Source: Ralstonia sp. ASV6
Lineage (GTDB): Bacteria; Pseudomonadota; Gammaproteobacteria; Burkholderiales; Burkholderiaceae
Assembly (NCBI RefSeq): GCF_016429285.1
Contig: NZ_JAELUI010000040.1
Coordinates: 1 to 44,616 of the forward strand
Direction of reading: 5' to 3'
Length of the DNA: 44,616 bases
The translations under genes were made by a program, and so were the position numbers. The notes below the pieces were generated by a model. The model saw nothing but the letters and a program-made list of their open reading frames with translations. It searched no databases and was not told the DNA's origin. Shown piece after piece: positions 3,268-30,240 of the stretch (position 1 is its first letter; each line of letters begins with the position of its first letter).

Positions 3268-3828
3268 ATGACACCCTTGCTCGACAAGATGAAAGCCGGC
3301 CGCCGCCGCTGGCTGGCCACCGCCGCGGGCGTCGGCATGGCGCTTGCGCTGTCCGCGTGTGCCGTGGTCGACAGCGGCCGTGCACCGGCCACCAGCGCGT
3401 CTGACGCATGGGTCGTGCTGCCCATCGTCAACTACACCGAAACCCCGCAGGCCGGGCTGCGTGCCGAGGCCATCGCCACCAGCATCCTGAAGGCGCGCGG
3501 TTTTACCAATCTCAAGCAGTATCCGGCCAACCTGAACAGCGAATCGCTGTTCGAACCGGCCGAGCGCGAGGCCGTGGCCCGCGCGCTGGATTGGGCGCGC
3601 GGCGAAAAGGCGCGCTATGCCTTGACCGGCGCCGTGGATGAGTGGCGCTACAAGGTGGGCGTGGATGGCGAACCCGCCGTCGGCATCACGCTGCAAGTGA
3701 TCGACGTGCAGAGCGGCAACGTGATCTGGAGCGCCGCCGGCAGCCGCACCGGCTGGAGCCGCGACGCCGTCTCGGCGGTGGCGCAGAAGCTGCTGCGCGA
3801 GTTGCTCTCGCCGCTGGGCCGAGGCTGA
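3268..3828 (+). CDS. pelC: Pel export lipoprotein PelC
   Basis: PelC is a small outer-membrane lipoprotein that forms a periplasmic ring guiding the Pel polymer to PelB. The translation has a basic n-region (KAGRRRW), a hydrophobic stretch and a clear lipobox, LSAC, so the mature protein begins at that Cys. The rest resembles the ABC-transporter-auxiliary fold of PelC, with a central AxALDWARGEKARYALTG-like segment. I chose ATG 3268 because AGGAG lies 6 nt upstream. An in-frame ATG at 3235 (11 codons longer, starting MKNNGS) is the alternative; it has a weaker GGGGA further upstream. The stop codon overlaps the pelD start (ATG at 3828), implying translational coupling. Only the start is uncertain. 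Confidence 0.9.
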   Translation: MTPLLDKMKAGRRRWLATAAGVGMALALSACAVVDSGRAPATSASDAWVVLPIVNYTETPQAGLRAEAIATSILKARGFTNLKQYPANLNSESLFEPAEREAVARALDWARGEKARYALTGAVDEWRYKVGVDGEPAVGITLQVIDVQSGNVIWSAAGSRTGWSRDAVSAVAQKLLRELLSPLGRG

Positions 3829-5282: not shown

Positions 5283-5299
5283 AGCGAGGGCACGCGACC

Positions 5300-7896: not shown

Positions 7897-9266
7897 TGGC
7901 CGGCATCGGGTTCGAGCTACGCAAGATGCTCAAGCGCGACAGCCTCCTCGGGCTGCTGCGCGCCTACACCTATGCCGGCATCATCAGCTCCGGGCCGTGG
8001 ATTCTCTCCATCGTCGGGATTCTGCTGATCGGTATCCTGAGCTTGCCGTTTGTGATTCCCGGCTCGCTCATCACGCAGTTCCAGGTGTCGGTCACCTACC
8101 TGATTGCGGTGAGCCTGATCTTGACCGGGCCGCTGCAGCTCGCCTTTACGCGCTTCACGTCAGACCGCCTGTTCGAGAAGCGCGACGACCTTGTTCTGCC
8201 CAACTACCACGCCGTGTCGCTGGTGATGACGCTGGTGGCGGGCGGCTTGGGGCTCATCGTCGTGCTATTCGCGTTTCCGCAGCAGTCGGCCATTTATCGG
8301 GTGCTGATGCTGGCGGGCTTTGTGGTCATGGCCAACATCTGGATCGCGGTGATCTTCCTGTCGGGCATGAAGCAGTACAAAGCGATCGTGTGGATCTTCC
8401 TGATCGGCTACACGCTCACGGTGCTGCTGGCGCTGCTGTTCAACCGCGTTGGGCTGGAGGGGTTGCTGCTGGGCTTCGTGCTGGGGCAGTTGTGCCTGCT
8501 GATCGGCATGGCGGGGCTGATCTACCGCAACTTCAGCGGACGCCGCTTCCTGTCGTTCGAGGTGTTCGACAAGCGGTTTGCGTATCCGTCGTTGATGCTG
8601 ATCGGGCTGCTGTACAACCTCGGCATCTGGCTCGACAAGTTCATGTTCTGGTATGCACCGGGCACCGGGCAGCAGGTGATCGGGCCGTTGCATGCGTCGG
8701 TCATCTACGACATTCCGGTGTTCCTGGCGTACCTGGGGATCATCCCCGGCATGGCTGTGTTCCTGGTGCGGATCGAGACGGACTTTGTAGAGTATTACGA
8801 CGCGTTCTACGACGCCGTGCGGGGCGGGGCGTCACTGGAGCACATCGAAGACATGCGCAACACGATGGTGCAGACCATTCGCGCGGGTCTGTACGAGATC
8901 GTGAAGATTCAGGCGATGGCGGCGCTGGTGCTGTTTGCCGTGGGGGCTTCCGTGCTGCGGGTGCTGCAGATTTCCGAGTTGTATCTGCCACTGCTGTATG
9001 TCGACACCATTGCTGCGAGCTTGCAGGTGGTGTTTCTGGGTGTGCTGAATATTTTCTTCTACCTGGACCGGCGGCGTGTGGTGCTGGGGCTGACGGCTGC
9101 GTTTGTGGTGCTCAACGGTGTGCTGACGTGGATCACGTTACAACTGGGGCCGGCCTGGTACGGGTATGGGTTTGCGGTGTCGCTACTGCTGGTGGTGATG
9201 GCGAGTCTGGTGATTCTGGATCGGAAACTGGATCGGTTGGAGTACGAGACGTTTATGTTGCAGTAG
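7896..9266 (+). CDS. pelG: Pel polysaccharide inner-membrane transporter PelG
   Basis: PelG is a polytopic inner-membrane protein of the MOP/Wzx-like superfamily and the probable route of Pel across the inner membrane, in complex with PelD and PelE. The 456 residues equal the length of P. aeruginosa PelG. The N-terminus MAGIGFELRKML is typical of PelG, and about 12 hydrophobic segments follow (for example GPWILSIVGILLIGIL and LLLGFVLGQLCLLIGMAGLI). It overlaps pelF by one base and is the last gene of the operon. The next gene is on the other strand and has a different base composition. Confidence 0.94.
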   Translation: MAGIGFELRKMLKRDSLLGLLRAYTYAGIISSGPWILSIVGILLIGILSLPFVIPGSLITQFQVSVTYLIAVSLILTGPLQLAFTRFTSDRLFEKRDDLVLPNYHAVSLVMTLVAGGLGLIVVLFAFPQQSAIYRVLMLAGFVVMANIWIAVIFLSGMKQYKAIVWIFLIGYTLTVLLALLFNRVGLEGLLLGFVLGQLCLLIGMAGLIYRNFSGRRFLSFEVFDKRFAYPSLMLIGLLYNLGIWLDKFMFWYAPGTGQQVIGPLHASVIYDIPVFLAYLGIIPGMAVFLVRIETDFVEYYDAFYDAVRGGASLEHIEDMRNTMVQTIRAGLYEIVKIQAMAALVLFAVGASVLRVLQISELYLPLLYVDTIAASLQVVFLGVLNIFFYLDRRRVVLGLTAAFVVLNGVLTWITLQLGPAWYGYGFAVSLLLVVMASLVILDRKLDRLEYETFMLQ

Positions 9267-16853: not shown

Positions 16854-17645
16854 TCAGGTCCGCACCCGCACCATTGCCGAGATGCGCTCGGCCGCTTCTT
16901 GCAACGGTTCGAGAAACTGTTTGGTCATCTGCTTGGCTGACGTACGGTTGGCCTGCCCGCTGATGTTCATGGCAGCGATGATATCGCCCGCCCGATTGCG
17001 GATCGGTGCTGACAGCGAGATCAGCCCTTCCTCCAACTCCTGGTCGACCAGCGCCCAGCCCTGTTGACGCACACCGGCAATGACATCCTTCAATGCATCG
17101 ACTTCGGTGACGGTGCGCTGCGTGCGCGCGCGGCGGTCGGATTCGCGCAGCACGATGTCAAGCCGATCTTCCGGCAGGCCGGACAGCAGCACGCGCCCCA
17201 TCGACGTACAGAACGCCGGCAGGCGGCTGCCGACCGCCAGGTTCAGCGCGATGATCTTTTGCGTGGGCACGCGCAGCACGTAGACGATTTCCGTGCCGTC
17301 GAGCACCGAGGCGGAGCAGCTCTCGTGCACCGTCTGCACCAGTTCCTCCATCACCGGCTCGGCGAGGTTCCAGAACGGCATCGAGGTGAGATAGGCGAAA
17401 CCCAGGTCGAGAATCTTGGGCGTGAGCCGGAACAGGCGCCCTTCAAAGCTGACGTAGCCCAGGCTCACCAGCGTGAGCAGGATGCGACGGGCGCCTGCGC
17501 GTGTGAGGCCGGTTGCTTCGGCAACCTCGGACAGCGTCTGCTCGGGCCGCTCTGCACTGAATGCGCGGATGACGGACAACCCGCGTGCAAAGGATTGCAC
17601 GTAGGAATCGCTGGGTTTTTCGGCAGGAAGTTCGGCGGCGGACAT
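16854..17645 (-). CDS. pcaR: IclR-family transcriptional regulator PcaR/PcaU/PobR type
   Basis: A 263-residue IclR-family regulator of the PcaR/PcaU/PobR subgroup, which senses beta-ketoadipate or protocatechuate. The winged helix lies near residues 20-85 (LSEVAEATGLTRAGARRILL as recognition region, then LGYVSFEGRLFRLTPKIL). The effector domain includes SCSASVLDGTEIVYVLRVPT and SRLPAFCTSMGRVLLSGLPE, hallmarks of this subgroup. It is divergent from pcaIJFBDC with a 322-bp gap holding a palindromic operator, so it very likely controls that operon. Which of the two effectors it uses cannot be told from sequence alone. Confidence 0.92.
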   Translation of the reverse strand: MSAAELPAEKPSDSYVQSFARGLSVIRAFSAERPEQTLSEVAEATGLTRAGARRILLTLVSLGYVSFEGRLFRLTPKILDLGFAYLTSMPFWNLAEPVMEELVQTVHESCSASVLDGTEIVYVLRVPTQKIIALNLAVGSRLPAFCTSMGRVLLSGLPEDRLDIVLRESDRRARTQRTVTEVDALKDVIAGVRQQGWALVDQELEEGLISLSAPIRNRAGDIIAAMNISGQANRTSAKQMTKQFLEPLQEAAERISAMVRVRT

Positions 17646-17734
17646 GCAGGGATGCGAAAGCGAAGTACTGGCCTCAAGACTACTGACATTCCAAGGGTTT
17701 CGCTACTCGAACGCTTGATCGCCATGCGTACGCC

Positions 17735-17764
17735 TTGACATGGACTGGAGCGCAGGCGTAGATT
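17735..17764 (+). promoter_or_regulatory. Possible sigma-70 promoter of pcaIJFBDC
   Basis: A perfect -35 box TTGACA (17735-17740) and TAGATT (17759-17764) are 18 bp apart. Transcription would start near 17771, just ahead of the operator. An alternative is a -10 box inside the operator (TATACC, 17790-17795) with a poor -35, as reported for Pseudomonas PcaR promoters. Confidence 0.4.
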
Positions 17765-17775
17765 AGTTCTTGGAT

Positions 17776-17799
17776 CGAACGTGAGTTCGTATACCGAAC
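17776..17799 (+). promoter_or_regulatory. PcaR-type operator (palindrome plus third half-site)
   Basis: The core GTTCGTATACCGAAC (17785-17799) is a near-perfect palindrome, GTTCG-N5-CGAAC. A further CGAAC half-site begins at 17776, 19 bp before the other CGAAC. This resembles the 15-bp PcaR motif of Pseudomonas putida and the three-half-site operators of Acinetobacter PcaU/PobR. The same core recurs at 27880. Binding by the adjacent PcaR is inferred. Confidence 0.72.
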
Positions 17800-17967
17800 A
17801 AAAAGAGGGCTGGGCCGGATAGCAAAGGCCCGCGTCGATTCAGTCGTCAATCAGGAGACTCGCAGGCCGCGCCTTTGCGGCCCGGCCATTTGCGTGACGG
17901 GTGGCCCGCGATGCTTCGAGCGGCGCCAGGCGATCAAAATGCGTGGCGCCCCTGCCGGAGAATGCAT

Positions 17968-18657
17968 GTGATCAACAAGATTTGTCCGTCTGTAGAGGCC
18001 GCGCTGGCCGATATTCCTGACGGTGCCACCATCATGATCGGCGGGTTTGGTACCGCTGGCATGCCTGCTGCGCTGATCGACGGGCTGATCGCCCACGGCG
18101 CACGCGATCTCACCATCATCAACAACAACGCCGGCAACGGCGAGACGGGCCTTGCCGCGCTGCTCAAGGCGCGCCGCGTGCGCAAGATCGTCTGCTCGTT
18201 CCCGCGCCAGGCTGATTCTTACGTGTTCGACGCGCTCTACCGCGCCGGCGAGATCGAGCTGGAACTGGTGCCGCAAGGCAATCTGGCCGAGCGCATCCGC
18301 GCTGCAGGTGCCGGTATCGGCGGCTTCTTCTGCCCGACCGCGTACGGCACGCAACTGGCAGAGGGCAAGGAGACGCGCATCATTGACGGCAGGCCGTACG
18401 TGTTCGAGTTGCCGCTGACTGCCGACTACGCGCTCATCAAGGCGTTGCGGGCGGACCGCTGGGGCAATCTCGTCTACCGCAAGACCGCGCGCAACTTCGG
18501 CCCGGTGATGGCCATGGCGGCCAAATGCACCATTGCGCAAGTCAGCGAGACAGTGGAGCTGGGCGAGTTGGACCCGGAACACATCGTCACGCCGGGCATC
18601 TTCGTCAAGCGTGTCGTCCAACTCGGCAGCGCTGCACAAGCCAAGGAGGCCGCATGA
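17968..18657 (+). CDS. pcaI: 3-oxoadipate CoA-transferase subunit A
   Basis: PcaI is the alpha subunit of succinyl-CoA:3-oxoadipate CoA-transferase, which activates beta-ketoadipate in the next-to-last step of the pathway. The 229 residues match the family (about 230). The glycine motif IMIGGFGTAGMP and the segment NNNAGNGETGLAALL are characteristic. I placed the start at GTG 17968 (reading (M)INKICPSVEA) because GGAG at 17957-17960 is 7 nt upstream and homologues begin there. An in-frame ATG at 17962 sits only 1 nt after that GGAG. The stop overlaps the pcaJ start (ATGA). Confidence 0.92.
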   Translation: MINKICPSVEAALADIPDGATIMIGGFGTAGMPAALIDGLIAHGARDLTIINNNAGNGETGLAALLKARRVRKIVCSFPRQADSYVFDALYRAGEIELELVPQGNLAERIRAAGAGIGGFFCPTAYGTQLAEGKETRIIDGRPYVFELPLTADYALIKALRADRWGNLVYRKTARNFGPVMAMAAKCTIAQVSETVELGELDPEHIVTPGIFVKRVVQLGSAAQAKEAA

Positions 18658-19316
18658 GCGCCGAAGCAACCACCCAATTCAAGCGCTGGACACGCGATCA
18701 GATCGCCACCCGCGTGGCGCGTGATATTCCTGATGGTTCCATCGTCAACCTCGGTATTGGCCTGCCCACGCTGGTGGCCAACCAGTTGCCTTCCGATCGC
18801 GAAATCATCCTGCATACCGAAAACGGCTTGCTCGGCATGGGCCCGGCACCCGCACCCGGCGACGAGGATGAAGACCTTATCAATGCGGGCAAGCAGCCCG
18901 TCACCATCCAGCCTGGCGCGTCGTTCTTCCATCACGCCGATTCGTTTGCCATGATGCGAGGCGGCCATCTTGACTACTGCGTGCTCGGCGGCTTCCAGGT
19001 GTCGGCCACGGGCGATTTGGCCAACTGGCACACCGGTGCGCCGGACGCGATTCCGGCCGTGGGCGGGGCGATGGATCTGGCCATCGGCGCCAAGCGGGTC
19101 TTTGTGATGATGGAACACCAGACCAAGCAGGGCGACAGCAAGATCGTGCAGTCGTGCACGTACCCGCTGACGGGCGTCGGCTGTGTCGATACCATCTACA
19201 CCGACCTTGCCGTGATCGATATCACGCCTGAGGGGCTGGTGGTGCGTGAGATGGCCGACGGCCTCGATTTCGATACGCTGCAGACGCTGACGGCCGCGCC
19301 GCTGCGCCGCGCATAA
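18654..19316 (+). CDS. pcaJ: 3-oxoadipate CoA-transferase subunit B
   Basis: Beta subunit of the 3-oxoadipate CoA-transferase, 220 residues. The catalytic glutamate is in the motif TENGLLGMGP (E56), and VNLGIGLPTLVAN and GGHLDYCVLGGFQV are family signatures. It overlaps pcaI by 4 nt with AAGGAGG just upstream, as expected for stoichiometric subunits. pcaF follows 27 nt later. Confidence 0.95.
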   Translation: MSAEATTQFKRWTRDQIATRVARDIPDGSIVNLGIGLPTLVANQLPSDREIILHTENGLLGMGPAPAPGDEDEDLINAGKQPVTIQPGASFFHHADSFAMMRGGHLDYCVLGGFQVSATGDLANWHTGAPDAIPAVGGAMDLAIGAKRVFVMMEHQTKQGDSKIVQSCTYPLTGVGCVDTIYTDLAVIDITPEGLVVREMADGLDFDTLQTLTAAPLRRA

Positions 19317-19343
19317 CAATGTAGTTGCTGGAGACAAACCATC

Positions 19344-20546
19344 ATGACCGAAGCCTTTATCTGCGACGCCATCCGCACCCCCATCGGCCGCTACGGCGGC
19401 AGCCTGTCCGCCGTGCGTGCGGATGACCTGGGCGCTGTGCCGCTCAAGGCGCTGATGGCGCGCAACCCTCAGGTCGACTGGTCGGCCATCGACGACGTGA
19501 TTTTCGGCTGCGCCAACCAGGCCGGTGAAGACAATCGCAACGTGGCGCGCATGTCGTCGCTGCTGGCCGGGCTGCCTGACAGCGTGCCGGGTTCGACCAT
19601 CAACCGCCTGTGCGGCTCGGGCATGGATGCCACCGGCACAGCCGCACGCGCCATCCGCGCCGGTGAGACCTCGCTGATGATCGCCGGCGGCGTGGAGAGC
19701 ATGAGCCGCGCGCCGTTCGTGATGGGCAAGGCCGCCAGCGCTTTCTCGCGCGATGCTGCCATCTATGACACGACCATCGGCTGGCGCTTCATCAACCCGC
19801 TGATGAAGGCGCAGTACGGCGTCGACTCGATGCCCGAGACCGCCGAGAATGTCGCCACCGATTACAACGTCAACCGCGAAGACCAGGACCGCTTTGCGCT
19901 ACGCAGCCAAGCCAACGCGGCGCGTGCGCAGGAAGACGGCACGCTCGCGCAGGAAATTACCGCGGTGACGATTCCGCAGAAGAAGGGCGACGCCATTGTC
20001 GTGAGCCGCGACGAGCATCCGCGTGCAACCACCATGGAAGCGCTGGCCAAGCTCAAGGGCGTGGTGCGCCCGGACGGCACGGTCACCGCCGGCAATGCTT
20101 CGGGTGTAAACGACGGCGCTTGCGCGCTGCTGCTCGCCAATGAGGAATCGGCCAAGCGCTTTGGCTTGACACCGCGTGCGCGCATCGTCGGCATGGCCAC
20201 CGCGGGTGTGCCGCCGCGCGTGATGGGTATTGGCCCGGCGCCGGCTTCGCAGAAGCTGCTCAAGCAACTGGGTCTGACGATCGACCAGATGGACGTGATC
20301 GAGCTGAACGAGGCGTTTGCCGCGCAAGGCTTGGCGGTTACGCGCCAACTCGGCCTGCGGGATGACGACCCGCGCGTCAACCCGAATGGTGGCGCCATCG
20401 CGCTGGGTCATCCGCTCGGCATGAGCGGTGCGCGTCTGGTAACCACGGCGATGTACCAGTTGCATCGCACCGGCGGCCGCTATGCGCTGTGCACGATGTG
20501 CATTGGCGTGGGCCAGGGCATTGCGCTGGTGATCGAACGCATTTGA
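19344..20546 (+). CDS. pcaF: 3-oxoadipyl-CoA thiolase
   Basis: Thiolase that cleaves 3-oxoadipyl-CoA to succinyl-CoA and acetyl-CoA, the last step of the beta-ketoadipate pathway. It is 400 residues long, as usual. The nucleophile Cys90 lies in NRLCGSGMDA, and H356 (GHPLGMSGAR) and C386 (CIGVGQG) complete the triad. The N-terminus AFICDAIRTPIGRYGGSLS is typical of PcaF. GGAG stands upstream of ATG 19344. Thiolases of different pathways look alike; the position between pcaJ and pcaB fixes the role. Confidence 0.95.
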   Translation: MTEAFICDAIRTPIGRYGGSLSAVRADDLGAVPLKALMARNPQVDWSAIDDVIFGCANQAGEDNRNVARMSSLLAGLPDSVPGSTINRLCGSGMDATGTAARAIRAGETSLMIAGGVESMSRAPFVMGKAASAFSRDAAIYDTTIGWRFINPLMKAQYGVDSMPETAENVATDYNVNREDQDRFALRSQANAARAQEDGTLAQEITAVTIPQKKGDAIVVSRDEHPRATTMEALAKLKGVVRPDGTVTAGNASGVNDGACALLLANEESAKRFGLTPRARIVGMATAGVPPRVMGIGPAPASQKLLKQLGLTIDQMDVIELNEAFAAQGLAVTRQLGLRDDDPRVNPNGGAIALGHPLGMSGARLVTTAMYQLHRTGGRYALCTMCIGVGQGIALVIERI

Positions 20547-20553
20547 TCCGGCC

Positions 20554-21915
20554 ATGACCAGCGGATTGTTCGACCGCGCGTTCTCCACGCCGGCCATGCT
20601 GGCGGTGTGGTCCGACGGGGCTATCGTGCGCGCGATGCTCGAGGTGGAGGCGGCGCTGGCGCGGGCCGAAGGTGCGGTCGGTGTGATTCCGGTGGAAGCC
20701 GTCGCGCCGATTTGCGCGGTATGTGCCAAGGCGAAGCTTGACCTGGAAGCACTGGGCGACGCCGCTGCAAGCGCGGGCAACCTGGCGATCCCGCTGGTCA
20801 AGCAATTGACCGCTGCCGTTGCGCAACATGATGAGAATGCCGCGCGTTACGTGCATTGGGGTGCGACTAGCCAGGACATCATCGACACCGGGTTGATGCT
20901 GCAGTGGAAGCAATCCGTCGAGCTGATCGATGCGGATCTGCAGAAGCTGGCCGATGGATTGGCCGCGCTGGCACAGCGCCATCGCAATACGCCGATGGTG
21001 GCGCGCACATGGTTGCAGCAAGCCTTGCCGACGACGTTTGGGCGCAAGGTCGCCGGTTGGCTGGAAGCGGTACATCGTGCGCAGGATCGCTTTGCGGCGC
21101 TGCGTACGCATGTGCCGGTGCTGCAGTTCGGTGGCGCGGCGGGCACGCTTGCCAGTCTGGGGGAGCACGGCCGTGCTGTGGCACAGGCACTGGCGCATGA
21201 ACTCGATTTGCCGCTGTCCGCGCTGTCGTGGCATGGCGAGCAGGATCGTGTTGCCGACATCGGCGCGACGCTCGCATTGCTGACCGGCACACTCGGCCAC
21301 TTCGCGCGCGATCTCTCGTTGATGATGCAGACCGAGGTGGGCGAAGTCGCAGAGCCGTCAGGCGCAGGGAAGGGGGGCTCTTCCACCATGCCGCATAAGC
21401 GCAATCCGGTTGGGTGCGCGGCGGTATTGGCGGCGGCCACGCGCATGCCCGGATTGGCGAGCACCTTGTTGTCTGCGCTGCCGCAGGAGCACGAACGTGC
21501 GCTCGGCGGCTGGCAGGCGCAGTGGGCGACGCTGCGCGAGATGGCATGCCTGGCTGCAGGCGCGCTCGACCGCATGCGCGAGGTCATCGAAGGTTTGCAT
21601 GTCGACGCGGCACGCATGCGCGCCAACCTGGGGCTGACGCATGGCCTGATTCTCGGTGAAGCCGTGATGCTGGCCCTCGGTGCAGACCTGGGCCGTCTGC
21701 AAGCACACCACGTGGTGGAAGCCGCCAGCCGCAGGGCCGTGCAAGACAATCGAACGCTGCGCGATGTACTGGCCGAAGCCCCCGACGTGCTGCGCATCTG
21801 GGGCAGCGCCACACCCCAACGGCTCGACGCGCTGCTCGATCCCACGCATTACCTTGGCGATGCGGGTGCCGCCGTCGACCGCGTGCTGGCCGAGCACGCT
21901 CGCCGCCACCCCTGA
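20554..21915 (+). CDS. pcaB: 3-carboxy-cis,cis-muconate cycloisomerase
   Basis: PcaB converts 3-carboxy-cis,cis-muconate, the product of protocatechuate 3,4-dioxygenase, to 4-carboxymuconolactone. It belongs to the fumarase/aspartase superfamily. The superfamily signature GSSTMPHKRNP is at residues 275-285 and HWGATSQDIIDTG at about 101-113. At 453 residues it fits the family. It starts 7 nt after pcaF with no obvious Shine-Dalgarno sequence, so translation may be coupled to pcaF. Confidence 0.95.
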   Translation: MTSGLFDRAFSTPAMLAVWSDGAIVRAMLEVEAALARAEGAVGVIPVEAVAPICAVCAKAKLDLEALGDAAASAGNLAIPLVKQLTAAVAQHDENAARYVHWGATSQDIIDTGLMLQWKQSVELIDADLQKLADGLAALAQRHRNTPMVARTWLQQALPTTFGRKVAGWLEAVHRAQDRFAALRTHVPVLQFGGAAGTLASLGEHGRAVAQALAHELDLPLSALSWHGEQDRVADIGATLALLTGTLGHFARDLSLMMQTEVGEVAEPSGAGKGGSSTMPHKRNPVGCAAVLAAATRMPGLASTLLSALPQEHERALGGWQAQWATLREMACLAAGALDRMREVIEGLHVDAARMRANLGLTHGLILGEAVMLALGADLGRLQAHHVVEAASRRAVQDNRTLRDVLAEAPDVLRIWGSATPQRLDALLDPTHYLGDAGAAVDRVLAEHARRHP

Positions 21916-21936
21916 TACGACATCTACGGAGACACC

Positions 21937-22749
21937 ATGCCCTGGCTCGAACACGACAACATCCGCCTGTATCACGAGTTTGACGATCCACACGATACGG
22001 GCAAGCCGGTGCTGGTGCTGTCCAACTCGCTGGGTACCAACCTCGGCATGTGGGAGCCGCAGCTCGATGCGTTGCGCCAGCATTTCCGTGTGCTGCGCTA
22101 TGACCAGCGGGGCCACGGCCAAACAAGTGTGCCGGATGCGCCGTTCGGTGTCGCGCAGCTTGGCGGCGATGTGCTCGCACTGCTGGATCACTACGACATT
22201 GACCTGGCGCTGTTCTGCGGCCTGTCGATGGGCGGGTTGACCGGCCTGTGGCTGGCTGTGCATCACGGCGAGCGCTTCCCGCGCATGGTGGTGAGCAACA
22301 CCGCGGCGCTGATCGGTACGCAGCAGAGCTGGAACACGCGCATCGCCCAAGTGGAGCAAGGCGGCATGGCCAGCGTGACCGAAACGGTGCTGGAGCGCTG
22401 GTTCACGCAGGGCTATCGCGATGCTGCGCCGGATCGTGTCGACATCGTCAAAGCGATGCTGCTGTCCACGCCAGACGCCGGCTACAACGGCAACTGCGGT
22501 GCGATCCGCGACGCAGACCTGCGAGCGCAATTGCCGAACATTCGCGTGCCAATGCTGGTGATTGGCGGCACGCACGATATTTCCACGCCCGCCGCGCAGA
22601 CCAAGCTCATCGCCGATGGCGTGCCCGGCGCGCAGTACGTGGAGCTTTCCACCGGCCACCTCGCCAACTGGGAACAGGCCGACGGTTATACCGAAGCGCT
22701 GGTCAGCTTCCTCACGACAGGTGTGGCACGTGAGGCTGCCCATGGATGA
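21937..22749 (+). CDS. pcaD: 3-oxoadipate enol-lactonase
   Basis: Alpha/beta hydrolase that opens 3-oxoadipate enol-lactone to beta-ketoadipate. The nucleophile elbow is GLSMGG (S97), the conserved RYDQRGHG segment precedes it, and the catalytic His is H241 in STGHLANWEQ. The 270 residues match PcaD. ACGGAGACACC precedes the start. The stop overlaps the pcaC start by 8 nt. In some bacteria pcaD and pcaC are fused; here they are separate. Confidence 0.95.
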   Translation: MPWLEHDNIRLYHEFDDPHDTGKPVLVLSNSLGTNLGMWEPQLDALRQHFRVLRYDQRGHGQTSVPDAPFGVAQLGGDVLALLDHYDIDLALFCGLSMGGLTGLWLAVHHGERFPRMVVSNTAALIGTQQSWNTRIAQVEQGGMASVTETVLERWFTQGYRDAAPDRVDIVKAMLLSTPDAGYNGNCGAIRDADLRAQLPNIRVPMLVIGGTHDISTPAAQTKLIADGVPGAQYVELSTGHLANWEQADGYTEALVSFLTTGVAREAAHG

Positions 22750-23137
22750 TCGCGAACGCCACGCCGCCGGCATGCAGGTGCGGCGCGCCGTGCTGGGCGA
22801 TGCCCATGTCGACCGCGCCAACGCCGGGCAGACCGACCTCACTGCACCGTTCCAGGATCTCATCACGCGCTATGCCTGGGGCGAGATCTGGACGCGCCCC
22901 GGCTTGCCGCGCCACACACGCAGCCTGTTGACGATCGCCATGATGGTTGCGTTGGGCCGCGACGGCGAGCTGCGCCTGCACCTGCGCGCAGCCGCCAACA
23001 ACGGCGTCACACGCGACGAGATTCAGGAGACGCTGCTGCAGACCGCCATCTATTGCGGCGTGCCGGCAGCCAACCATGCCTTCCACCTCGCGCAGACCGT
23101 GTTTGCCGAGATGGATGCGGAGGCCGCGGACAAGTAG
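22742..23137 (+). CDS. pcaC: 4-carboxymuconolactone decarboxylase
   Basis: PcaC decarboxylates 4-carboxymuconolactone to 3-oxoadipate enol-lactone. The 131-residue protein shows the carboxymuconolactone-decarboxylase fold: RYAWGEIWTRPGLPRHTRSL, then LRLHLRAAANNGVTRDEIQE, then IYCGVPAANHAFHLA. The start ATG at 22742 lies inside the end of pcaD. It is the last catabolic gene of the run; the transporter genes begin 85 nt later with their own strong ribosome site. Confidence 0.95.
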   Translation: MDDRERHAAGMQVRRAVLGDAHVDRANAGQTDLTAPFQDLITRYAWGEIWTRPGLPRHTRSLLTIAMMVALGRDGELRLHLRAAANNGVTRDEIQETLLQTAIYCGVPAANHAFHLAQTVFAEMDAEAADK

Positions 23138-23222
23138 GGCATTTCGTCTCGGGGGAGACACCACGCAACACAGACCGGGCAAACTGGCCGCCGAGCCAGA
23201 ACAGACCCCAAGGAGGAGGCCC

Positions 23223-24092
23223 ATGCTCAGTGCATTGGGTGTGTTGTTTGACGGGCTGGCCTACGGCAGCCTGCTGTTCCTGATCAGCATCGGCCTGTCG
23301 GTCACGATGGGGCTGATGAACTTCATCAATCTTGCGCACGGCGCGTTTGCCATGGCGGGCGGCTATGTGTGCGTGGTGTTGATGAACCGCCTTGGCGTGC
23401 CATTCCTGGCGACGCTGCCCATTGCTTTCCTTGTCACCGCAGCCATCGGGTTTGTGCTGGAGCGCACGTTGTACCGGCGGCTCTATCGCGCGAGCCCGCT
23501 GGATCAGGTGCTGTTCTCCATTGCGCTCGTGTTTATGGCGATGGCGGGAGCGACCTACGTCTGGGGGCCGGCGCAGCAGCCGGTTGAGTTGCCGGAGGTG
23601 CTGCGCGGGCAGCTGAGCGTGTTCGGCAGCGGGTTGGAGGTCGGGCGCTACCGGCTCTTCCTGATCGGCGTAGTGATCGCGCTGACCGTGCTGCTGGCCT
23701 GGTTGATCGAGCGCACACGCTTTGGCGCGCAGGTGCGGGCGTCGGTGGACAACCAGCAGGCATCTGCTGGGCTGGGCATCAACGTGAGCCTGGTGTTCTC
23801 CGTCACGTTTGCACTGGGCTCCGGGCTGGCGGGACTGGGCGGCGGATTGGGTATCGACGTGCTCGGGCTCGATCCGTCGTTTCCCATCAAGTACATGGTG
23901 TATTTCCTGCTCGTGGTTGCGGTGGGTGGCGCTGGCTCCATCAAGGGGACGCTGCTGGCGGCGCTGGTATTGGGCGTGTTCGACGTGGCGGGCAAATACT
24001 ACGTGCCGGAAATTGGCGCGTTCGTCATCTACGGCTTGATGGTGGTCTTGCTCGTGCTGTTTCCGAGTGGCCTGCTGGGGAGGCGCGCATGA
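23223..24092 (+). CDS. livH: Branched-chain-type ABC transporter permease LivH
   Basis: Inner-membrane permease of the LivH family, 289 residues with about eight membrane segments. The N-terminus AYGSLLFLISIGLSVTMGLMNFINLAHGAF is characteristic. Start ATG 23223 follows AAGGAGGAGG. It lies 85 nt after pcaC on the same strand, and the next three genes complete the importer. Members of this family often import aromatic acids when placed in catabolic loci; here 4-hydroxybenzoate, protocatechuate or a related acid is inferred, not shown. Confidence 0.93.
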   Translation: MLSALGVLFDGLAYGSLLFLISIGLSVTMGLMNFINLAHGAFAMAGGYVCVVLMNRLGVPFLATLPIAFLVTAAIGFVLERTLYRRLYRASPLDQVLFSIALVFMAMAGATYVWGPAQQPVELPEVLRGQLSVFGSGLEVGRYRLFLIGVVIALTVLLAWLIERTRFGAQVRASVDNQQASAGLGINVSLVFSVTFALGSGLAGLGGGLGIDVLGLDPSFPIKYMVYFLLVVAVGGAGSIKGTLLAALVLGVFDVAGKYYVPEIGAFVIYGLMVVLLVLFPSGLLGRRA

Positions 24093-25123
24093 GCTTGCTG
24101 CAGCAAATGATGCGTGCCTCACAGCCCGCCGAGAGCGCACGGGTGCACGGCTTGCCCGATGCGCGTTGGTCGGCGCTGGAGTTGGCGTTCTGGTGCGTGC
24201 CGATCGCCGTGTTCTTTCTCTTTCCGGACTACCTGGTCTTTGGCAGTCAGGTGCTGATCGTAGGGCTGTTTGCGTTGTCACTTGACCTGGTGCTGGGCTA
24301 CGCGGGTATCGTGTCGCTGGGGCATGCAGGCTTCTTCGGGCTTGGCGCTTATACGGCAGGGCTGCTGGCGGCGCACGGTTGGGGGGAGCCGTTGACGGGG
24401 TTGGCCGCTGCCGCCATCGTCGCTGCGCTCGGGGGCTTCTGCGTGAGCTTTCTGGTCGTGCGTGGGCAGGATCTGACGCGGCTGATGGTCACGCTCGGCA
24501 TCGGCCTGATGCTGTATGAAGCGGCCAACAAGATGGCGTTCCTGAGTGGCGGTGTCGACGGGCTCTCGGGCGTGACCATGAGCAACCTGCTCGGCAGCTT
24601 CGAGTTCGACCTGACGGGCCGCACGGCTTACGTCTACAGCCTGGTCGTGCTGTTTGTCGTGTTTGTGTTGCTGCGCAGGCTGGTGCGCTCACCATTCGGG
24701 TTGTCGCTGCGCGGCATTCAACAGGGGCCGAAACGGATGCCGGCGATTGGCACGAATGTGCGCATGCGCCTGGTGGCCGCGTTTACGGTAAGCGCAGCAA
24801 TTGCCGGTGTTGCCGGCGGGCTGCTCGCGCAGACCACGCAGTTTGTCGGGCTGGATTCGCTGGGTTTCTCGCGCTCGGCAGAGCTGCTGATCATGCTGGT
24901 ACTGGGCGGAGCGGGCCGGTTGTACGGCGCGCTGATCGGCGCGGCGGTGTTCATGGTGGCGCAGGACGTGCTGTCCGGTATCAATCCGGTCTACTGGCAG
25001 TTCTGGATCGGCTTGCTGTTGATGGTGATCGTTCTGTTTGCGCGTGGCGGCCTGTTGGGTGGGCTGGAGGCGGCGGTTTCCGGCATCAAGGCCTGGCGTG
25101 CGCGCAGAGGAGGTGCTGCATGA
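24089..25123 (+). CDS. livM: Branched-chain-type ABC transporter permease LivM
   Basis: Partner permease of the LivM family, 344 residues with about ten hydrophobic segments. The motif LSLDLVLGYAGIVSLGHAGFFGLGAY is diagnostic. Near the C-terminus the segment SAELLIMLVLGGAGRLYGALIGA is also typical. It overlaps livH and livG by 4 nt each (ATGA), indicating a coupled operon. Confidence 0.94.
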   Translation: MSLLQQMMRASQPAESARVHGLPDARWSALELAFWCVPIAVFFLFPDYLVFGSQVLIVGLFALSLDLVLGYAGIVSLGHAGFFGLGAYTAGLLAAHGWGEPLTGLAAAAIVAALGGFCVSFLVVRGQDLTRLMVTLGIGLMLYEAANKMAFLSGGVDGLSGVTMSNLLGSFEFDLTGRTAYVYSLVVLFVVFVLLRRLVRSPFGLSLRGIQQGPKRMPAIGTNVRMRLVAAFTVSAAIAGVAGGLLAQTTQFVGLDSLGFSRSAELLIMLVLGGAGRLYGALIGAAVFMVAQDVLSGINPVYWQFWIGLLLMVIVLFARGGLLGGLEAAVSGIKAWRARRGGAA

Positions 25124-25893
25124 ACGCGCCGACGATGCATCCCACGCCAACGCTCAGTACACGCGGATTGTCCAAACGCTGGGGCGGCTTTCATGCCAAC
25201 TCGGAGATCTCGTTGTCATTCGCGCCCGGCGCACGTCACGCGCTGATCGGCCCCAACGGCGCAGGCAAGACGACCTTCATCAATCTGCTGACCGGCGCGT
25301 TTGCGCCCACCTCTGGTCAGGTGCTGCTAGGCGAGGAAGACATCACGCGCCTGCCGGCGCACCAGCGCGTCAAGCGCGGCATTACGCGCACGTTCCAGAT
25401 CAACACGTTATTCCCGGGGCTGACGGTATTGGAATCCGTGATGCTCGCCATCTTCGAGCGCACAGGTGTTGCGTGGCAATGGCATCGCACGGTCGCCGCG
25501 CATAAGGAGGCGCGCGACGAGGCCATGGCGCTGCTGTGCCGCCTGCAACTTGGCGCCGATGCGCTGGCGCAAACGCATGCGTTGCCGTATGGCAAACAGC
25601 GGCTGGTGGAGATTGCGCTCGCGCTGGCCACGCAGCCGCGCATCCTGTTGCTTGACGAACCTGCCGCCGGCATCCCGGCGGGGGAGAGCGCCGAACTGTT
25701 CGAGGTGATCGCCAGCCTGCCGCGCGATATCACCATCCTCTTCATCGAGCACGACATGAACCTCGTCTTTCGCTTTGCCGAGCGGATCAGTGTGCTGGTG
25801 GCCGGCCGCGTGCTGACCGAAGGCTCGCCACAGGAGATCGCCGCCGACCCGCGCGTGCGGGAGGTCTACCTGGGGGAGGCCGAACATGCCTGA
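25120..25893 (+). CDS. livG: Branched-chain-type ABC transporter ATP-binding protein LivG
   Basis: First ATPase of the importer, 257 residues. Walker A is GPNGAGKTT, the Q-loop region reads RTFQINTLFPGLTVLESVM, and Walker B is ILLLDEPAAGIP. The usual LSGGQ signature is replaced by LPYGKQRLVEIALAL, as is normal for LivG. It overlaps livF by 8 nt. Confidence 0.94.
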   Translation: MNAPTMHPTPTLSTRGLSKRWGGFHANSEISLSFAPGARHALIGPNGAGKTTFINLLTGAFAPTSGQVLLGEEDITRLPAHQRVKRGITRTFQINTLFPGLTVLESVMLAIFERTGVAWQWHRTVAAHKEARDEAMALLCRLQLGADALAQTHALPYGKQRLVEIALALATQPRILLLDEPAAGIPAGESAELFEVIASLPRDITILFIEHDMNLVFRFAERISVLVAGRVLTEGSPQEIAADPRVREVYLGEAEHA

Positions 25894-26587
25894 GTTGCTG
25901 GCGTTTGAGAACGTGACCGCCGGCTATGGCAACGCCATCGTGCTGGACGACGTGTCGTTCACGCTGGACACGGGTGGCAGCCTTGCGCTGCTGGGCCGCA
26001 ATGGCGTTGGCAAGACGACGCTGCTGAGTACGTTGATGGGCTTCACACGCCTGCATCGTGGGCGCATCCGCTGGCAAGGCGCAGACATCGGCAAGGTCGC
26101 ACCGCACCGCCGCGCGCGGGCTGGGCTTGGATGGGTGCCGCAGGAACGGTGGATGTTTCCCTCGCTGACGGTGGAAGAGCACCTGACGGCCGTCGCTCGG
26201 CCAGGCACCTGGGATGTGGCGCGCGTCTACAAGACGTTCCCGCGCCTGCAGGAGCGGCGGCGCAATCTCGGCAACCAGCTCTCCGGCGGTGAGCAGCAGA
26301 TGGTGGCCATCGCCCGTGCTCTGATGACGAACCCTGCGCTGCTGTTGCTTGATGAGCCGATGGAAGGCCTCGCGCCGATCATCGTGCAGGAACTCGGCCG
26401 CGCCATCCGTGCGCTGGTGGAAGAGGGCGGCATGGCGGTGATTGTGGTGGAGCAGCATGCACGTCTGGCGCTGGAGTTGACGCAGCGCGCGATGGTGCTC
26501 GATCGTGGGCGCATCGTTCACGCATCGAGCAGCGCCGATCTGCTTGCCGACAAGCCGCTGCTGCAGCGGCTTGTGGCGGTCGCCTGA
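25886..26587 (+). CDS. livF: Branched-chain-type ABC transporter ATP-binding protein LivF
   Basis: Second ATPase, 233 residues. Walker [10 protein letters not shown], signature [15 protein letters not shown] and Walker [14 protein letters not shown] are intact. It ends the + strand operon. Only 13 nt separate its stop from the stop of the convergent binding-protein gene, and no terminator is visible there, so the transcripts may overlap. Confidence 0.94.
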
Positions 26588-26600
26588 GGCTGGGTAGGGC

Positions 26601-27770
26601 TTACTTGCCCGGGTCCTTCACGTCGGCAAATTTGTCGAACTCGACGTTGTAGAGCTCGTTGCCGACCTTTTCCACCTTGCGGATATAAACCGTCTGCACC
26701 ACATCGCGGGTGGCGGGGTCGATGGTGATCGGTCCGCGCGGGCTGTCGATCTTCATGCCCTTGAAGGCAGCCATGGCCTTCTCGCCATCGATCTTGCCGC
26801 CCAGCTTGTTGATCACGTCGTAGATCGCGCCGATGCCGTCGTACGCGGCCACCGCCATGAAGTTGGGGCGGCCCGCACCGGGGTTGGCCTCGGCAAAGGC
26901 TTTCAGGAAGGTCTTGTTCTGCGGCGAGTCGTGCGCCGCCGAGTAGTGGAACGACGTGATCACACCCAGCGTCGAGTCGCCCATGGCCGGCAGTACGTGG
27001 TCGTCCGTCAGGTCCCCGGTGGCGATGACCTTGATGCCAGCCTGTGCCAGCCCGCGCTCTCGGAAACCTTTCATGAACGCCACGCCTTGCTCGCCAGCCG
27101 GCAGGAAGACGAACACGGCTTGTGGCTTCGTGTCTTTCACGCGCTGGATGAACGGCGCGAACTCGGGGTTGCGCAGCGGCACGCGCACGGCTTCCACGAC
27201 TTGCCCGCCGCCTGCAGTGAAGGTCTGCTTGAAGGCGTTTTCTGCGTCGATGCCGGGCGCGTAGTCGGCCACCACCGTCGCCACCTGCTTGATGCCGTTC
27301 TTCAACGCCCACGAGGCAATCGGCGCGGAGACCTGCGGCAGCGTCATCGACACGCGCGTCACGTAGTCGGATTTGGTGGTGATGGATGACGACGCGGCGT
27401 TGAAGATCACCATCGGCTTCTTGGCCTGCTGCGCGATGGGTGTCACGGCCAGCGCTTCCGGCGTGAGGCCGAAGCCAGCCAGGAAGTCGACCTTGTCGCG
27501 CACCACCAGCTCCTGCGCCAGACGCTTGGCGACATCCGGTGCGGGGCCGGTCGTGTCCTTCATGATGATCTGCACCTGACGCCCGCCGGCCGTTGTGCCA
27601 TGAAGCTTCTGATACGCCTTGATGCCGCCTTCCATCTGCTTGCCGTAATCCGCAAAGGTGCCGGAGAAGGGTGCGATCAGGCCGATCTTGATCGGCTCGT
27701 CCGCGAAGGCGGGCAACGCACGCATCAACGTACCAGCAATGGCAGTCAACAGCAGCACACGACGTTTCAT
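26601..27770 (-). CDS. ABC transporter periplasmic binding protein, LivK/aromatic-acid type
   Basis: A 389-residue periplasmic binding protein of the type I (LivK, Peripla_BP_6) class and the likely ligand-binding part of the adjacent LivHMGF importer. The signal peptide is RRVLLLTAIAGTLMRALPAFA; the mature part begins DEPIKIGLIAPFSGTFADYG. ATG 27770 follows GGAGACC. Close relatives that I recall in this class bind aromatic acids rather than leucine, and the setting between pca and pob genes supports this. Although it is on the opposite strand, a PcaR-type operator lies about 110 nt upstream of its start, so it can be co-controlled with the pca operon. Confidence 0.9.
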   Translation of the reverse strand: MKRRVLLLTAIAGTLMRALPAFADEPIKIGLIAPFSGTFADYGKQMEGGIKAYQKLHGTTAGGRQVQIIMKDTTGPAPDVAKRLAQELVVRDKVDFLAGFGLTPEALAVTPIAQQAKKPMVIFNAASSSITTKSDYVTRVSMTLPQVSAPIASWALKNGIKQVATVVADYAPGIDAENAFKQTFTAGGGQVVEAVRVPLRNPEFAPFIQRVKDTKPQAVFVFLPAGEQGVAFMKGFRERGLAQAGIKVIATGDLTDDHVLPAMGDSTLGVITSFHYSAAHDSPQNKTFLKAFAEANPGAGRPNFMAVAAYDGIGAIYDVINKLGGKIDGEKAMAAFKGMKIDSPRGPITIDPATRDVVQTVYIRKVEKVGNELYNVEFDKFADVKDPGK

Positions 27771-27860
27771 GAAGGTCTCCAAAGGTTGAGCGGCAAGCGT
27801 GGGCCGGAAACTTGGGGCAGTGGCGTCGCCTGCGCGTGGCGACGATCCTAAAGGCTTCGT

Positions 27861-27894
27861 GTTCGCATTGCAACCGAGTGTTCGTATAGTGAAC
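27861..27894 (-). promoter_or_regulatory. Second PcaR-type operator, upstream of the binding-protein gene
   Basis: The core at 27880-27894 reads GTTCGTATAGTGAAC on the + strand (GTTCACTATACGAAC on the -). It matches the pcaI operator at 13 of 15 positions, differing only at two adjacent bases in its second half. A further GTTCG at 27861 is spaced 19 bp from the next GTTCG, the same 19-bp direct spacing as at the pcaI site. The core contains TATAC on the - strand, which could serve as a -10 element; no good -35 was found. Confidence 0.65.
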
Positions 27895-27910: not shown

Positions 27911-28888
27911 CTACTTGGTGTGTTTGCGCTTGGCCGGTGCATGACCGGGCTCGCGCCATTCGTCGGCCTCGTCGTTGAACAGCGATGCCACCAGCGCGCG
28001 GAACCACTGGCTGCGCGCATCGTTGTGGAACTTGCGGTGCCAGTGCTGCTTGAGGTCGAAGCTGGGCAGCTCCAGCGGCGGCTCCATCACGCGGATGTTG
28101 GCGTGCGATTGCATGAACGATAGCCCCACCGCATGCGGCACTGTGGCAATCAAGTCCGTGCGCGCGAGGATGAACGGAATGCTCATGAAGTGCGGCGTGA
28201 GCAGAGCTGGTGTACGGCGGATGCGCTTGCGCTCCAGGAAGCGCTCGTACAACTCCTGGCTGCGCCCTTCCGCACGCACCACGGCGTGGCCGTATTCCAG
28301 GAACTGCGCCATCGATAGCTTCGTGTTGCCGCCGCGTGTGACGGGGTGATCTGCCCGCACGATGCAGGTGAAGTAGTGCGTGAACAGCCGCTGCTGGAAG
28401 AAGTTGTTCTTCTTCAGGTCAGGAAAATAGCCGACGGCCAGATCGAGTGCGCCGGTCTCCAACGCACGCTCAATCTGCGCCGGCGGCAGCGATACGGACT
28501 GCACCGACGCCCCCGGCGCCTCCCGCGCCATCGCCTCGATGATGCGGGGCAGGAACACCATCTCGCCCACGTCCGACAAGGCAATCGAAAACAGGTGCGT
28601 GGTGGTGACCGGGTCAAACGCGCTGGTCTCCAGAATGCCCTGCTGCACGCGCGCCAACACATCACGTGCGGCGGGAATGAGGGCGAGCGCACGCGGTGTC
28701 GGTTCCATGCCGCGCGAGGTGCGCACGAACAGCGGGTCATCGAACGCCGTGCGCAGCTTGGCCAGCGCCGTGCTCACGCCTGGCTGGCTCATGCCGAGAT
28801 GCTGCGCAGCCATGCTCACGCTGCGTGCGTCGTGCAATGCCAGCAGGATCGGCAACAGGTTCAGGTCAAAGTCGGGCAGCGTGGACAT
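27911..28888 (-). CDS. LysR-family regulator of the pob/pca locus
   Basis: A 325-residue LysR-type transcriptional regulator. The N-terminal helix-turn-helix is clear (SVSMAAQHLGMSQPGVSTAL, then LRTAFDDPLFVRTSRGMEPT), followed by a periplasmic-binding-like effector domain starting near THLFSIALSDVGEM. I placed the start at ATG 28888 (MSTLPDFDLNLL); the upstream open frame to 29002 covers the promoter region. It is divergent from pobA with a 119-bp gap carrying two T-N11-A dyads, so control of pobA (a PobR-like role) is the best guess. A PcaQ-type role is the alternative. The last 20 residues are Lys/Arg/His-rich. Confidence 0.88.
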   Translation of the reverse strand: MSTLPDFDLNLLPILLALHDARSVSMAAQHLGMSQPGVSTALAKLRTAFDDPLFVRTSRGMEPTPRALALIPAARDVLARVQQGILETSAFDPVTTTHLFSIALSDVGEMVFLPRIIEAMAREAPGASVQSVSLPPAQIERALETGALDLAVGYFPDLKKNNFFQQRLFTHYFTCIVRADHPVTRGGNTKLSMAQFLEYGHAVVRAEGRSQELYERFLERKRIRRTPALLTPHFMSIPFILARTDLIATVPHAVGLSFMQSHANIRVMEPPLELPSFDLKQHWHRKFHNDARSQWFRALVASLFNDEADEWREPGHAPAKRKHTK

Positions 28889-28898
28889 GGCAATCGCA

Positions 28899-28917
28899 CT
28901 ATCTGAATGAGCGATAG
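28899..28917. promoter_or_regulatory. LysR-type dyad, site 1
   Basis: CTATC-N9-GATAG, including a T-N11-A core (T28902, A28914), begins 10 nt before the LysR start codon. The position suits autorepression. Confidence 0.5.
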
Positions 28918-28928
28918 AGTTTATCGCC

Positions 28929-28949
28929 GATATTGCATTGTGCGATATC
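28929..28949. promoter_or_regulatory. LysR-type dyad, site 2
   Basis: A 21-bp imperfect palindrome, GATAT at 28929 and ATATC ending 28949, with T-N11-A (T28933, A28945). It lies about 60-80 nt before the pobA start, a usual activator position. The inner bases GC...GC echo site 1. Confidence 0.5.
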
Positions 28950-29007
28950 AAGGAGCGCGCCAACAATGCTTGCCAGAACGATTCCAATCCGTCTGGAGAC
29001 AACCACC

Positions 29008-30240
29008 ATGCGCACCCAGGTCGCCATCATCGGCGCGGGCCCCGCCGGCCTGCTGCTCGGGCAGCTTCTGCATCGCAACGGCATTGATGCCGTCATCCTC
29101 GAAACCAGGAGCCGCACGTATGTGGAAGAGCGCATCCGCGCTGGCGTGCTGGAGCAAGGTACGGTCGACATGCTCAATGAAGCCGGTGTGGGTGAACGTA
29201 TGCGCCGTGAGGGGCTGGTGCACCACGGCATTGATCTGCTGTTCGGCGGTAAGCGGCATCGCGTGGACCTGACGACGATGTCGGGCGGGCGCTCCATCAC
29301 CGTGTATGGGCAGCACGAGGTGGTGAAGGATCTGATTGCCGCACGCGTGGAGCAGGGCGCTCCGCTGCTCTTCGAGGTGAGCGACGTATCGGTGCACGAC
29401 ATTGAATCGGCCACGCCCTCGGTGCGCTTTGTGCATGACGGTGTGCCGCAGACGCTGCAGTGCGACTACATCGCTGGTTGCGACGGCTTCCACGGCATCT
29501 GCCGGCCGGCGATCCCGGCGCAGCGGCAGGCCGTGTTCGAGCGCGTCTACCCGTTTGCGTGGCTGGGCATCCTGGCTGAGGCAGCGCCCGCTGCCGAGGA
29601 ACTGATCTACGCGAGCCACGACCGCGGCTTCGCGCTGTTCAGCATGCGTTCACCCAAGATCACGCGGCTCTATCTGCAATGCGAGCCCGACGAAAACCTG
29701 GCCGAATGGTCCGACGCCCGTATCTGGGATGAACTCCACACGCGCCTGGAAACCAACGACGGCTGGCATCTCAAAGAGGGTGCGATCCTGCAGAAGAGCG
29801 TGACGCCGATGCGCAGTTTCGTCTGCGAGACGATGCAGTACGGCCGCCTGTTCCTGGCGGGCGATGCAGCGCATATCGTGCCGCCCACCGGCGCCAAGGG
29901 CATGAACCTGGCCGTGGCCGATGTGCGCGTGCTGGCCCAGGCGCTGACTGCGCGTTATCGGCAGAACGATACGACGCAACTGGCCGGCTACTCGGAGCGT
30001 TGCCTGCAACGCATCTGGCGTGCGGAGCATTTCTCATGGTGGATGACGTCGATGCTGCATCGCTTCGACGACTACACGCCGTTCATGCAGCGGCTGCAAC
30101 GCGCAGAGCTGGAGTACGTGACGTCCTCGCCGGCAGCGGCGCGCGTGCTGGCCGAGAACTACGTCGGCCTGCCGTTTGTCGATGCGCCGGCGAGGGAGTT
30201 GAGCGCTGTGGGGAACGTCAGTCGTTCCAGGACGGCGTAG
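29008..30240 (+). CDS. pobA: 4-hydroxybenzoate 3-monooxygenase
   Basis: PobA hydroxylates 4-hydroxybenzoate to protocatechuate using FAD, NADPH and O2, feeding the pca genes. The FAD motif is IIGAGPAGLLLG near the N-terminus, the DG motif is GCDGFHG, and the GD motif is GDAAHIVPPTGAKGMNLA; all are typical of this enzyme. From ATG 29008 it has 410 residues against about 394 in Pseudomonas, the excess being at the C-terminus (APARELSAVGNVSRSRTA). The frame is open from 28933 but homology begins at MRTQVAIIG. The 3' end overlaps the convergent GH114-like gene by 23 nt. Confidence 0.96.
   Translation: MRTQVAIIGAGPAGLLLGQLLHRNGIDAVILETRSRTYVEERIRAGVLEQGTVDMLNEAGVGERMRREGLVHHGIDLLFGGKRHRVDLTTMSGGRSITVYGQHEVVKDLIAARVEQGAPLLFEVSDVSVHDIESATPSVRFVHDGVPQTLQCDYIAGCDGFHGICRPAIPAQRQAVFERVYPFAWLGILAEAAPAAEELIYASHDRGFALFSMRSPKITRLYLQCEPDENLAEWSDARIWDELHTRLETNDGWHLKEGAILQKSVTPMRSFVCETMQYGRLFLAGDAAHIVPPTGAKGMNLAVADVRVLAQALTARYRQNDTTQLAGYSERCLQRIWRAEHFSWWMTSMLHRFDDYTPFMQRLQRAELEYVTSSPAAARVLAENYVGLPFVDAPARELSAVGNVSRSRTA

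Follow-up and report, generated by a model that had tools for sequence, protein, structure and literature searches.

A candidate PcaR operator set joining pca catabolism and aromatic-acid-type ABC transport in Ralstonia sp. ASV6

Three tandem operators in the pca locus

A contig of Ralstonia sp. ASV6 (NZ_JAELUI010000040.1, positions 1 to 44,616 of the forward strand; this whole stretch of 44,616 nucleotides is called the window below) carries a pca gene cluster, the regulator gene pcaR and the genes of a Liv-type ABC transporter, together with three similar 34-bp sequences, designated O1, O2 and O3. We propose, with a probability of about 0.86, that O1-O3 are the operators through which PcaR acts in this genome and that they link pca catabolism with uptake through the mechanism described below, which would provide an operator set and a candidate regulatory role for an aromatic-acid-type ABC transporter of Ralstonia and Oxalobacteraceae. 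The three elements, each a double box of the pattern GTTCG-N5-CGAAC-N4-GTTCG-N5-CGAAC, are as follows:

O1, 17698..17731, minus strand: double box within the promoter region of pcaR, GTACGCATGGCGATC-AAGC-GTTCGAGTAGCGAAA, 3/20 mismatches
O2, 17766..17799, plus strand: double box before pcaI, GTTCTTGGATCGAAC-GTGA-GTTCGTATACCGAAC, 1/20 mismatches
O3, 27861..27894, plus strand: double box before the binding-protein gene, GTTCGCATTGCAACC-GAGT-GTTCGTATAGTGAAC, 3/20 mismatches

The original prediction had named two 15-mers, GTTCGTATACCGAAC at 17785-17799 and GTTCGTATAGTGAAC at 27880-27894, and both their positions and their agreement at 13/15 bases were correct. Each of them is a real box but only one half of its site: the former is joined by a partner at 17766-17780 in O2 and the latter by a partner at 27861-27875 in O3, so that the operator measures 34 bp, and these partners, as well as the third double box, O1, had been missed. 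The box centres are 19 bp apart in O1, O2 and O3 alike, which falls within the 18-22 nucleotides between centres of the tandem sites in IclR group-1 operators; these sites, the group-1 motifs and PcaR motifs from elsewhere are already in print (Suvorova and Gelfand 2021, PMC8222616). The inner group-1 motif GTYCRYW3RYGRAC is matched at 15/15 positions by the box at 27880-27894, at 14/15 by that at 17785-17799 and at 11-13 of 15 by the remaining four boxes. With its flanks included (two flanks, by eye), the box at 27880-27894 fits TGTYCRYW3RYGRACA at 17/17 positions. On motif match, the boxes of O1-O3 fit the TGT-11-ACA subgroup of IclR motifs best, a subgroup in which genes for aromatic metabolism and transport are over-represented (PMC8222616).

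In the proposed mechanism, PcaR would bind each operator as two dimers that are 19 bp apart and occupy one face of the DNA. At O2, which lies on the predicted pcaI transcription start, the bound protein would block pcaIJFBDC and, most likely, the permease and ATPase genes on the same transcript, while at O1 it would exert control over its own gene. Through O3, the binding-protein gene, located on a separate convergent transcript, would obey the same signal. Release of PcaR would be brought about by a ligand, presumably beta-ketoadipate, which is named as the PcaR ligand in Pseudomonas (PMC12455658).

Rarity of the double box in the window and in the genome

A single 15-mer carries little information. 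At up to three mismatches, 7 matches were found in the window, compared with a mean of 3.3 in shuffled sequences, of which 8/100 reached 7; genome-wide, 26 matches at up to two mismatches faced 31 for a reversed control. The lone 15-mer was thus rejected as genome-wide evidence, being too weak at two mismatches, although these two are its only exact matches in the genome. One copy with a single mismatch, at C461:25300, precedes a CBS-domain-like gene of a cluster for stress proteins (genes named by eye), and with three mismatches allowed no partner box accompanies it.

The double-box pattern behaves differently. With up to 3 of its 20 fixed bases mismatched, it occurs at exactly three places in the window, which give six strand hits owing to its palindromic form, against 0.013 strand hits expected under a first-order Markov model. 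No double box beyond O1-O3 was found at this threshold in the complete assembly (718 contigs, 5,897,561 bases), and the reversed control gave 0; many unrelated copies, named beforehand as grounds for abandoning the idea, did thus not appear for the double box. A profile built from 15 operators scored the three double boxes, in descending order, at 30.6, 28.7 and 28.4 bits and the next genome match at 13.3 bits; O1-O3 are among the training rows of this profile, and its informative part is the drop to 13.3 bits. More degenerate operators elsewhere would escape both the pattern and the profile scan. Since the double-box pattern was chosen after the sites had been seen, the independent evidence comes from relatives.

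Conservation in Ralstonia and in the wider family

The sample consisted of 200 genomes of the family, the genome under study included, with 15 genus relatives among them. O1 and O2 were present in 15/15 genus relatives, O1 at the same place. The binding-protein gene was found in 10/15 of them, and O3 accompanied it in 8/10 at up to three mismatches, while 0/5 of the relatives without the gene had O3 at its place at that threshold. In the five loci that were fetched from relatives lacking the gene, a plus-strand search at up to five mismatches returned only O1 and O2, plus, in one locus (L087), a 5-mismatch match overlapping O2. The arms of O2 and O3 are nearly invariant in the genus relatives, whereas the inner positions and the O2 spacer vary, which is the pattern expected for a protein-binding site; the O3 spacer shows little variation. 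All three operators are present in Ralstonia sp. CL21 (locus L177).

Some further features were seen in individual relatives. Two Ralstonia loci without the transporter (L083 and L084) retain, between pcaC and lysR, a remnant of the binding-protein leader with half of O3 (by eye), suggesting that the cluster was lost there by deletion and is not a late gain. An extra related double box lies elsewhere in three transporter-less Ralstonia genomes (G067:C1:1014966, G113:C23:210813 and G121:C27:74193), and an extra double box of other sequence lies at G105:C29:4639. Ralstonia soli, whose O3 is considered further on, may have freed its binding-protein gene from PcaR.

At the level of the family, PcaR was scored as present at 1e-90 in 128/200 genomes. 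The double box was found in 125/128 genomes with PcaR versus 15/72 without it, and double-box places numbered 308 versus 37 for the control in the former and 21 versus 16 in the latter, counts that take no account of common ancestry or of genome size, in which the two groups differ. Of 30 loci taken from the more numerous matches of the double-box pattern in the family, 28 had pcaI in the fetched stretch, one had pcaF and pcaR, and one had none of the genes sought. A box with up to four mismatches was located within 320 nucleotides upstream of pcaI in 74/74 loci, 46 of which (the window included) had not been selected by operator, and it accompanies pcaI even where pcaI and pcaR are far apart on one contig, as in genome G093.

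A second comparison concerned the binding-protein gene itself, in the best 80 of 136 relatives of this gene from a contig scan. A double box lay within 420 nucleotides upstream of the gene in 55/80 of these loci at up to six mismatches and in 50/80 at up to four; the reversed control gave none at up to five mismatches and 1/80 at six, and shuffled sequences gave 1/800 at up to four and 20/800 at up to six. The box preceded 48/51 binding-protein genes linked to pca genes versus 7/29 unlinked ones, linkage being defined by pca genes in the fetched stretch, so that some of the 29, whose stretches were in part short, may adjoin unseen pca genes. All 15 Cupriavidus loci among the 80, where transporter and pca genes are apart, have neither the box nor pca linkage and provide a natural control. 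Where it is linked to pca genes, the binding-protein gene thus has a conserved box upstream, both in Ralstonia and across Oxalobacteraceae. Many loci of the latter family have the permease and ATPase genes behind pcaIJF on the same strand, with a separate box for the binding-protein gene. Taken with the counts for pcaI (74/74) and for genomes with PcaR (125/128), that for the pca-linked genes makes a PcaR operator shared by catabolism and uptake, as first proposed, the best reading.

Two other arrangements were observed among these loci. In two from Oxalobacteraceae (L207 and L249), the binding-protein gene is divergent from a gene for a Gram-negative porin (Porin_4), and a gene of the PcaR family is situated between this porin gene and pcaI; the outer-membrane pore might therefore be under the control of the same double box. 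In six others (L185, L186, L190, L193, L200 and L203), all Cupriavidus save L190 (Burkholderiaceae bacterium 16), the fetched stretch with the orthologous transporter contains a pobA homologue (69-75%) in place of the pca genes. The PcaR box is absent there, which suggests another regulator.

Promoter layout and sign of control

The promoters predicted at O2 and O3 are placed differently with respect to the operator:

17735..17764, plus strand: predicted pcaI promoter, TTGACA-18-TAGATT, 10/12, ending one base before O2
27845..27873, minus strand: predicted binding-protein promoter, TTGCAA-17-TAGGAT, 8/12, with its -35 hexamer inside the O3 box 27861-27875

The best pcaI -35/-10 pair ends 1-9 bases before the operator in 70/74 loci, and in 42/46 of those not selected by operator. 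By comparison, 29 shuffled pairs (both hexamers) gave 0 to 25 of 74, and a control with the -35 hexamer alone changed gave 1/74. Being located just downstream of the pcaI -10 hexamer, O2 occupies a repressor position, which is consistent with fitness data from Ralstonia sp. CL21, in which pcaR insertions had a fitness of +4.7 on protocatechuate and the operon a mean of -3.9, and from which repression was deduced (PMC12543098).

The binding-protein pair, at 8/12, lies below the 9/12 cut-off of the general promoter scan and was not listed by it; the scan's own call inside O3, on the plus strand and directed away from the binding-protein gene, was set aside in favor of the minus-strand pair. The TTG of the possible -35 hexamer is present in the gene-proximal box in 49/56 binding-protein loci, and in 48/56 it is followed 17 or 18 bp on by a -10-like hexamer (at least 4/6). 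In an unguided search, the top pair had its -35 hexamer at the proposed place in only 21/56 loci, among them the window and eight Ralstonia-type loci (L175-L182).

As O3 overlaps the likely -35 hexamer of the binding-protein gene, PcaR might there either block this hexamer or aid RNA polymerase, repression being slightly the likelier of the two. We regard it as possible, if somewhat doubtful, that the sign depends on position, PcaR repressing the catabolic operon and activating the binding-protein gene from a double box over and upstream of a weak -35 hexamer. Were this so, the capture protein would be raised by activation while the enzymes are freed by derepression; the two layouts themselves recur in Ralstonia and Oxalobacteraceae. 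In engineered promoters with Pseudomonas PcaR, the sign changes with box position in some, not all, constructs (PMC12455658). The two promoters form a clean natural pair, one having its operator behind the -10 hexamer and the other an identical type of operator over the -35 hexamer, and thereby bear on the activator/repressor duality of IclR regulators.

The probable regulator of O1-O3

The gene at 16854-17645 encodes, by its TIGR02431 score (343.2 bits, cut-off 284.75), the IclR-type PcaR that had been predicted at this locus, and it is the sole place in the genome above that cut-off, the 13 further matches of the 14 in total being weaker. It is transcribed divergently from pcaI, the two genes sharing the gap 17646-17967, which is the neighborhood by which PcaR/PcaU/PobR regulators are recognized. 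A PcaR homologue was present in the fetched stretch of 43/55 box-bearing binding-protein loci. We infer that PcaR binds O1-O3.

Another protein of the IclR family, such as the paralogue at C81:5457-6194, might bind O1-O3 alone or together with PcaR. We consider this very improbable: although the genome holds 13 further TIGR02431 matches, the best of them, at 266 bits, being this paralogue, O1 sits in the pcaR promoter region itself, O1 and O2 lie between pcaR and pcaI in 15/15 genus relatives, and PcaR alone exceeds the family cut-off.

Binding of O1-O3 by the adjacent LysR-type regulator (27911-29002) is very improbable. Its gene adjoins O3, a single box fits the loose LysR rule T-N11-A (by eye), and a similar sequence, GTTCGCTAAACGAAT, is attributed in B. 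xenovorans LB400 to a LysR-type protein that is named PcaR there (PMC3572157). However, a LysR homologue (1e-40) was found in the fetched stretch of only 10/55 box-bearing binding-protein loci versus 43/55 for the PcaR homologue, and 0/21 fetched loci with pcaI but without a pcaR homologue in the stretch (L127-L141 and L143-L148) showed a LysR at 1e-15. Furthermore, the box agrees with IclR group 1 in both consensus and tandem spacing, and the gap between lysR and pobA carries other repeats (by eye). The LysR-type regulator was rejected as the binder on the grounds that the presence of the box does not track its gene. That O3 is a chance match, the binding-protein gene being controlled otherwise, is hardly credible, given that the double box is unique to O1-O3 in the genome, conserved in genus relatives and in 55/80 of the compared loci and missing from the Cupriavidus control, even though a lone 15-mer is no rarer than its control at two mismatches.

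Several observations weigh against PcaR as the regulator of a common operator set. No PcaR homologue was found in the fetched stretch of 12/55 box-bearing loci, and where box-bearing loci from outside Ralstonia do have one (36 homologues), its identity to the PcaR of the window is a mere 41-44%. The sub-cut-off paralogue mentioned above could share the sites. Among the binding-protein genes, 3/51 pca-linked ones lack the box and 7/29 unlinked ones have it. Within the genus, O3 of one relative (G024) has one change beyond the 3-mismatch limit, and that of Ralstonia soli (G087; loci L079/L176) is degenerate, with 5/20 mismatches, before an intact binding-protein gene, so O3 may not be important in every species. 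To these are added the counts, which are uncorrected for phylogeny and genome size, the upper end of the shuffled hexamer pairs and the outcome of the unguided promoter search.

Relation to described systems

The type of control, with an IclR motif in tandem spacing, has already been described, and the O1-O3 set of Ralstonia is a well-supported fresh example of it. IclR group 1 shares with this set the TGT-11-ACA box type, the tandem spacing and targets encoding Liv-type transporters, whose genes are among the IclR regulons (PMC8222616). Ralstonia goes unmentioned in the main text of that article, the supplements of which may list the O1-O3 set. Among the papers listed in a literature search over titles and abstract openings, there was no account of this set or of a PcaR site before this transporter, with the same reservation about those supplements.

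A close system is that of Ralstonia sp. CL21, which belongs to the same genus and has the same locus, and for which a pcaR deletion strain was made (PMC12543098). In the parts covered, that study neither gives an operator for PcaR nor comments on the transporter next to the operon. In Polaromonas, paralogous genes for aromatic ABC transporters of the benzoate type likewise lie beside IclR-type regulators and are likely IclR-controlled, the IclR factors themselves not being studied in that work as far as covered (PMC6449761).

P. putida PcaR, with the operator sequences GTTCGATAATCGCAC and WWWRKTCGATWATCGSAYRRW, is a member of the same family that recognizes a 15-bp box of like design and governs pcaI and other pca genes (PMC8222616, PMC12455658). 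Unlike in P. putida, the Ralstonia set includes the binding-protein gene of a Liv-type ABC transporter. According to the title of a 1999 paper by Guo and Houghton, listed in PMC8222616, P. putida PcaR binds its promoters at their -35 and -10 elements. The Ralstonia pcaI operator differs in being a tandem pair that starts one base after the -10 hexamer.

Genes of the locus and neighboring features

The genes between pcaR and pobA were assigned as follows:

16854..17645, minus strand: pcaR, IclR-family regulator
17968..18657, plus strand: pcaI, TIGR02429
18654..19316, plus strand: pcaJ, TIGR02428
19344..20546, plus strand: pcaF, TIGR02430
20554..21915, plus strand: pcaB, TIGR02426
21937..22749, plus strand: pcaD, TIGR02427
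22742..23137, plus strand: pcaC, TIGR02425, 198 bits
23223..24092, plus strand: Liv-type ABC permease 1, starting 85 bp after pcaC
24089..25123, plus strand: Liv-type ABC permease 2
25120..25893, plus strand: Liv-type ABC ATPase 1
25886..26587, plus strand: Liv-type ABC ATPase 2
26601..27770, minus strand: periplasmic binding-protein gene, 389 amino acids, intact
27911..29002, minus strand: LysR-type regulator, divergent from pobA
28933..30240, plus strand: pobA, 4-hydroxybenzoate 3-monooxygenase, TIGR02360, 586 bits

The permease and ATPase genes (23223-26587) have overlapping ends. Between 22600 and 26700, the scan detected no promoter-like site (0.5 expected from shuffles) and only a single terminator-like one (23222-23243, where shuffles led us to expect 3.3 in the region); with so few of either, a single transcript from pcaI to the second ATPase gene is likely, and the permease and ATPase genes are probably co-transcribed with the pca operon. 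The binding-protein gene does lie on the opposite strand, as noted originally; its end, however, is 13 bases from that of the ATPase gene, tail to tail, so the two transcripts are convergent and not divergent as had been stated.

By sequence, the binding protein is related to aromatic-acid binding proteins of known structure, the nearest being 4ey3, 4eyg and 4eyk (E 6e-131; 4ey3 over residues 23-389), followed by 4evs and 4f06. These are presumably hydroxybenzoate- or protocatechuate-binding proteins of Rhodopseudomonas. The transporter probably imports 4-hydroxybenzoate or protocatechuate. Several binding proteins of R. palustris bind 4-hydroxybenzoate (PMC3223731).

Homology in the pobA open reading frame starts at residue 26, near 29008. 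The gap between lysR and pobA (28900-29010) contains several GCGATA/TATCGC repeats (by eye) that differ from the PcaR box and may represent the LysR site. Upstream of the pca locus, at 114-9266, the window carries Pel-type exopolysaccharide genes (PelB, PelD and PelG domains and a glycosyltransferase).

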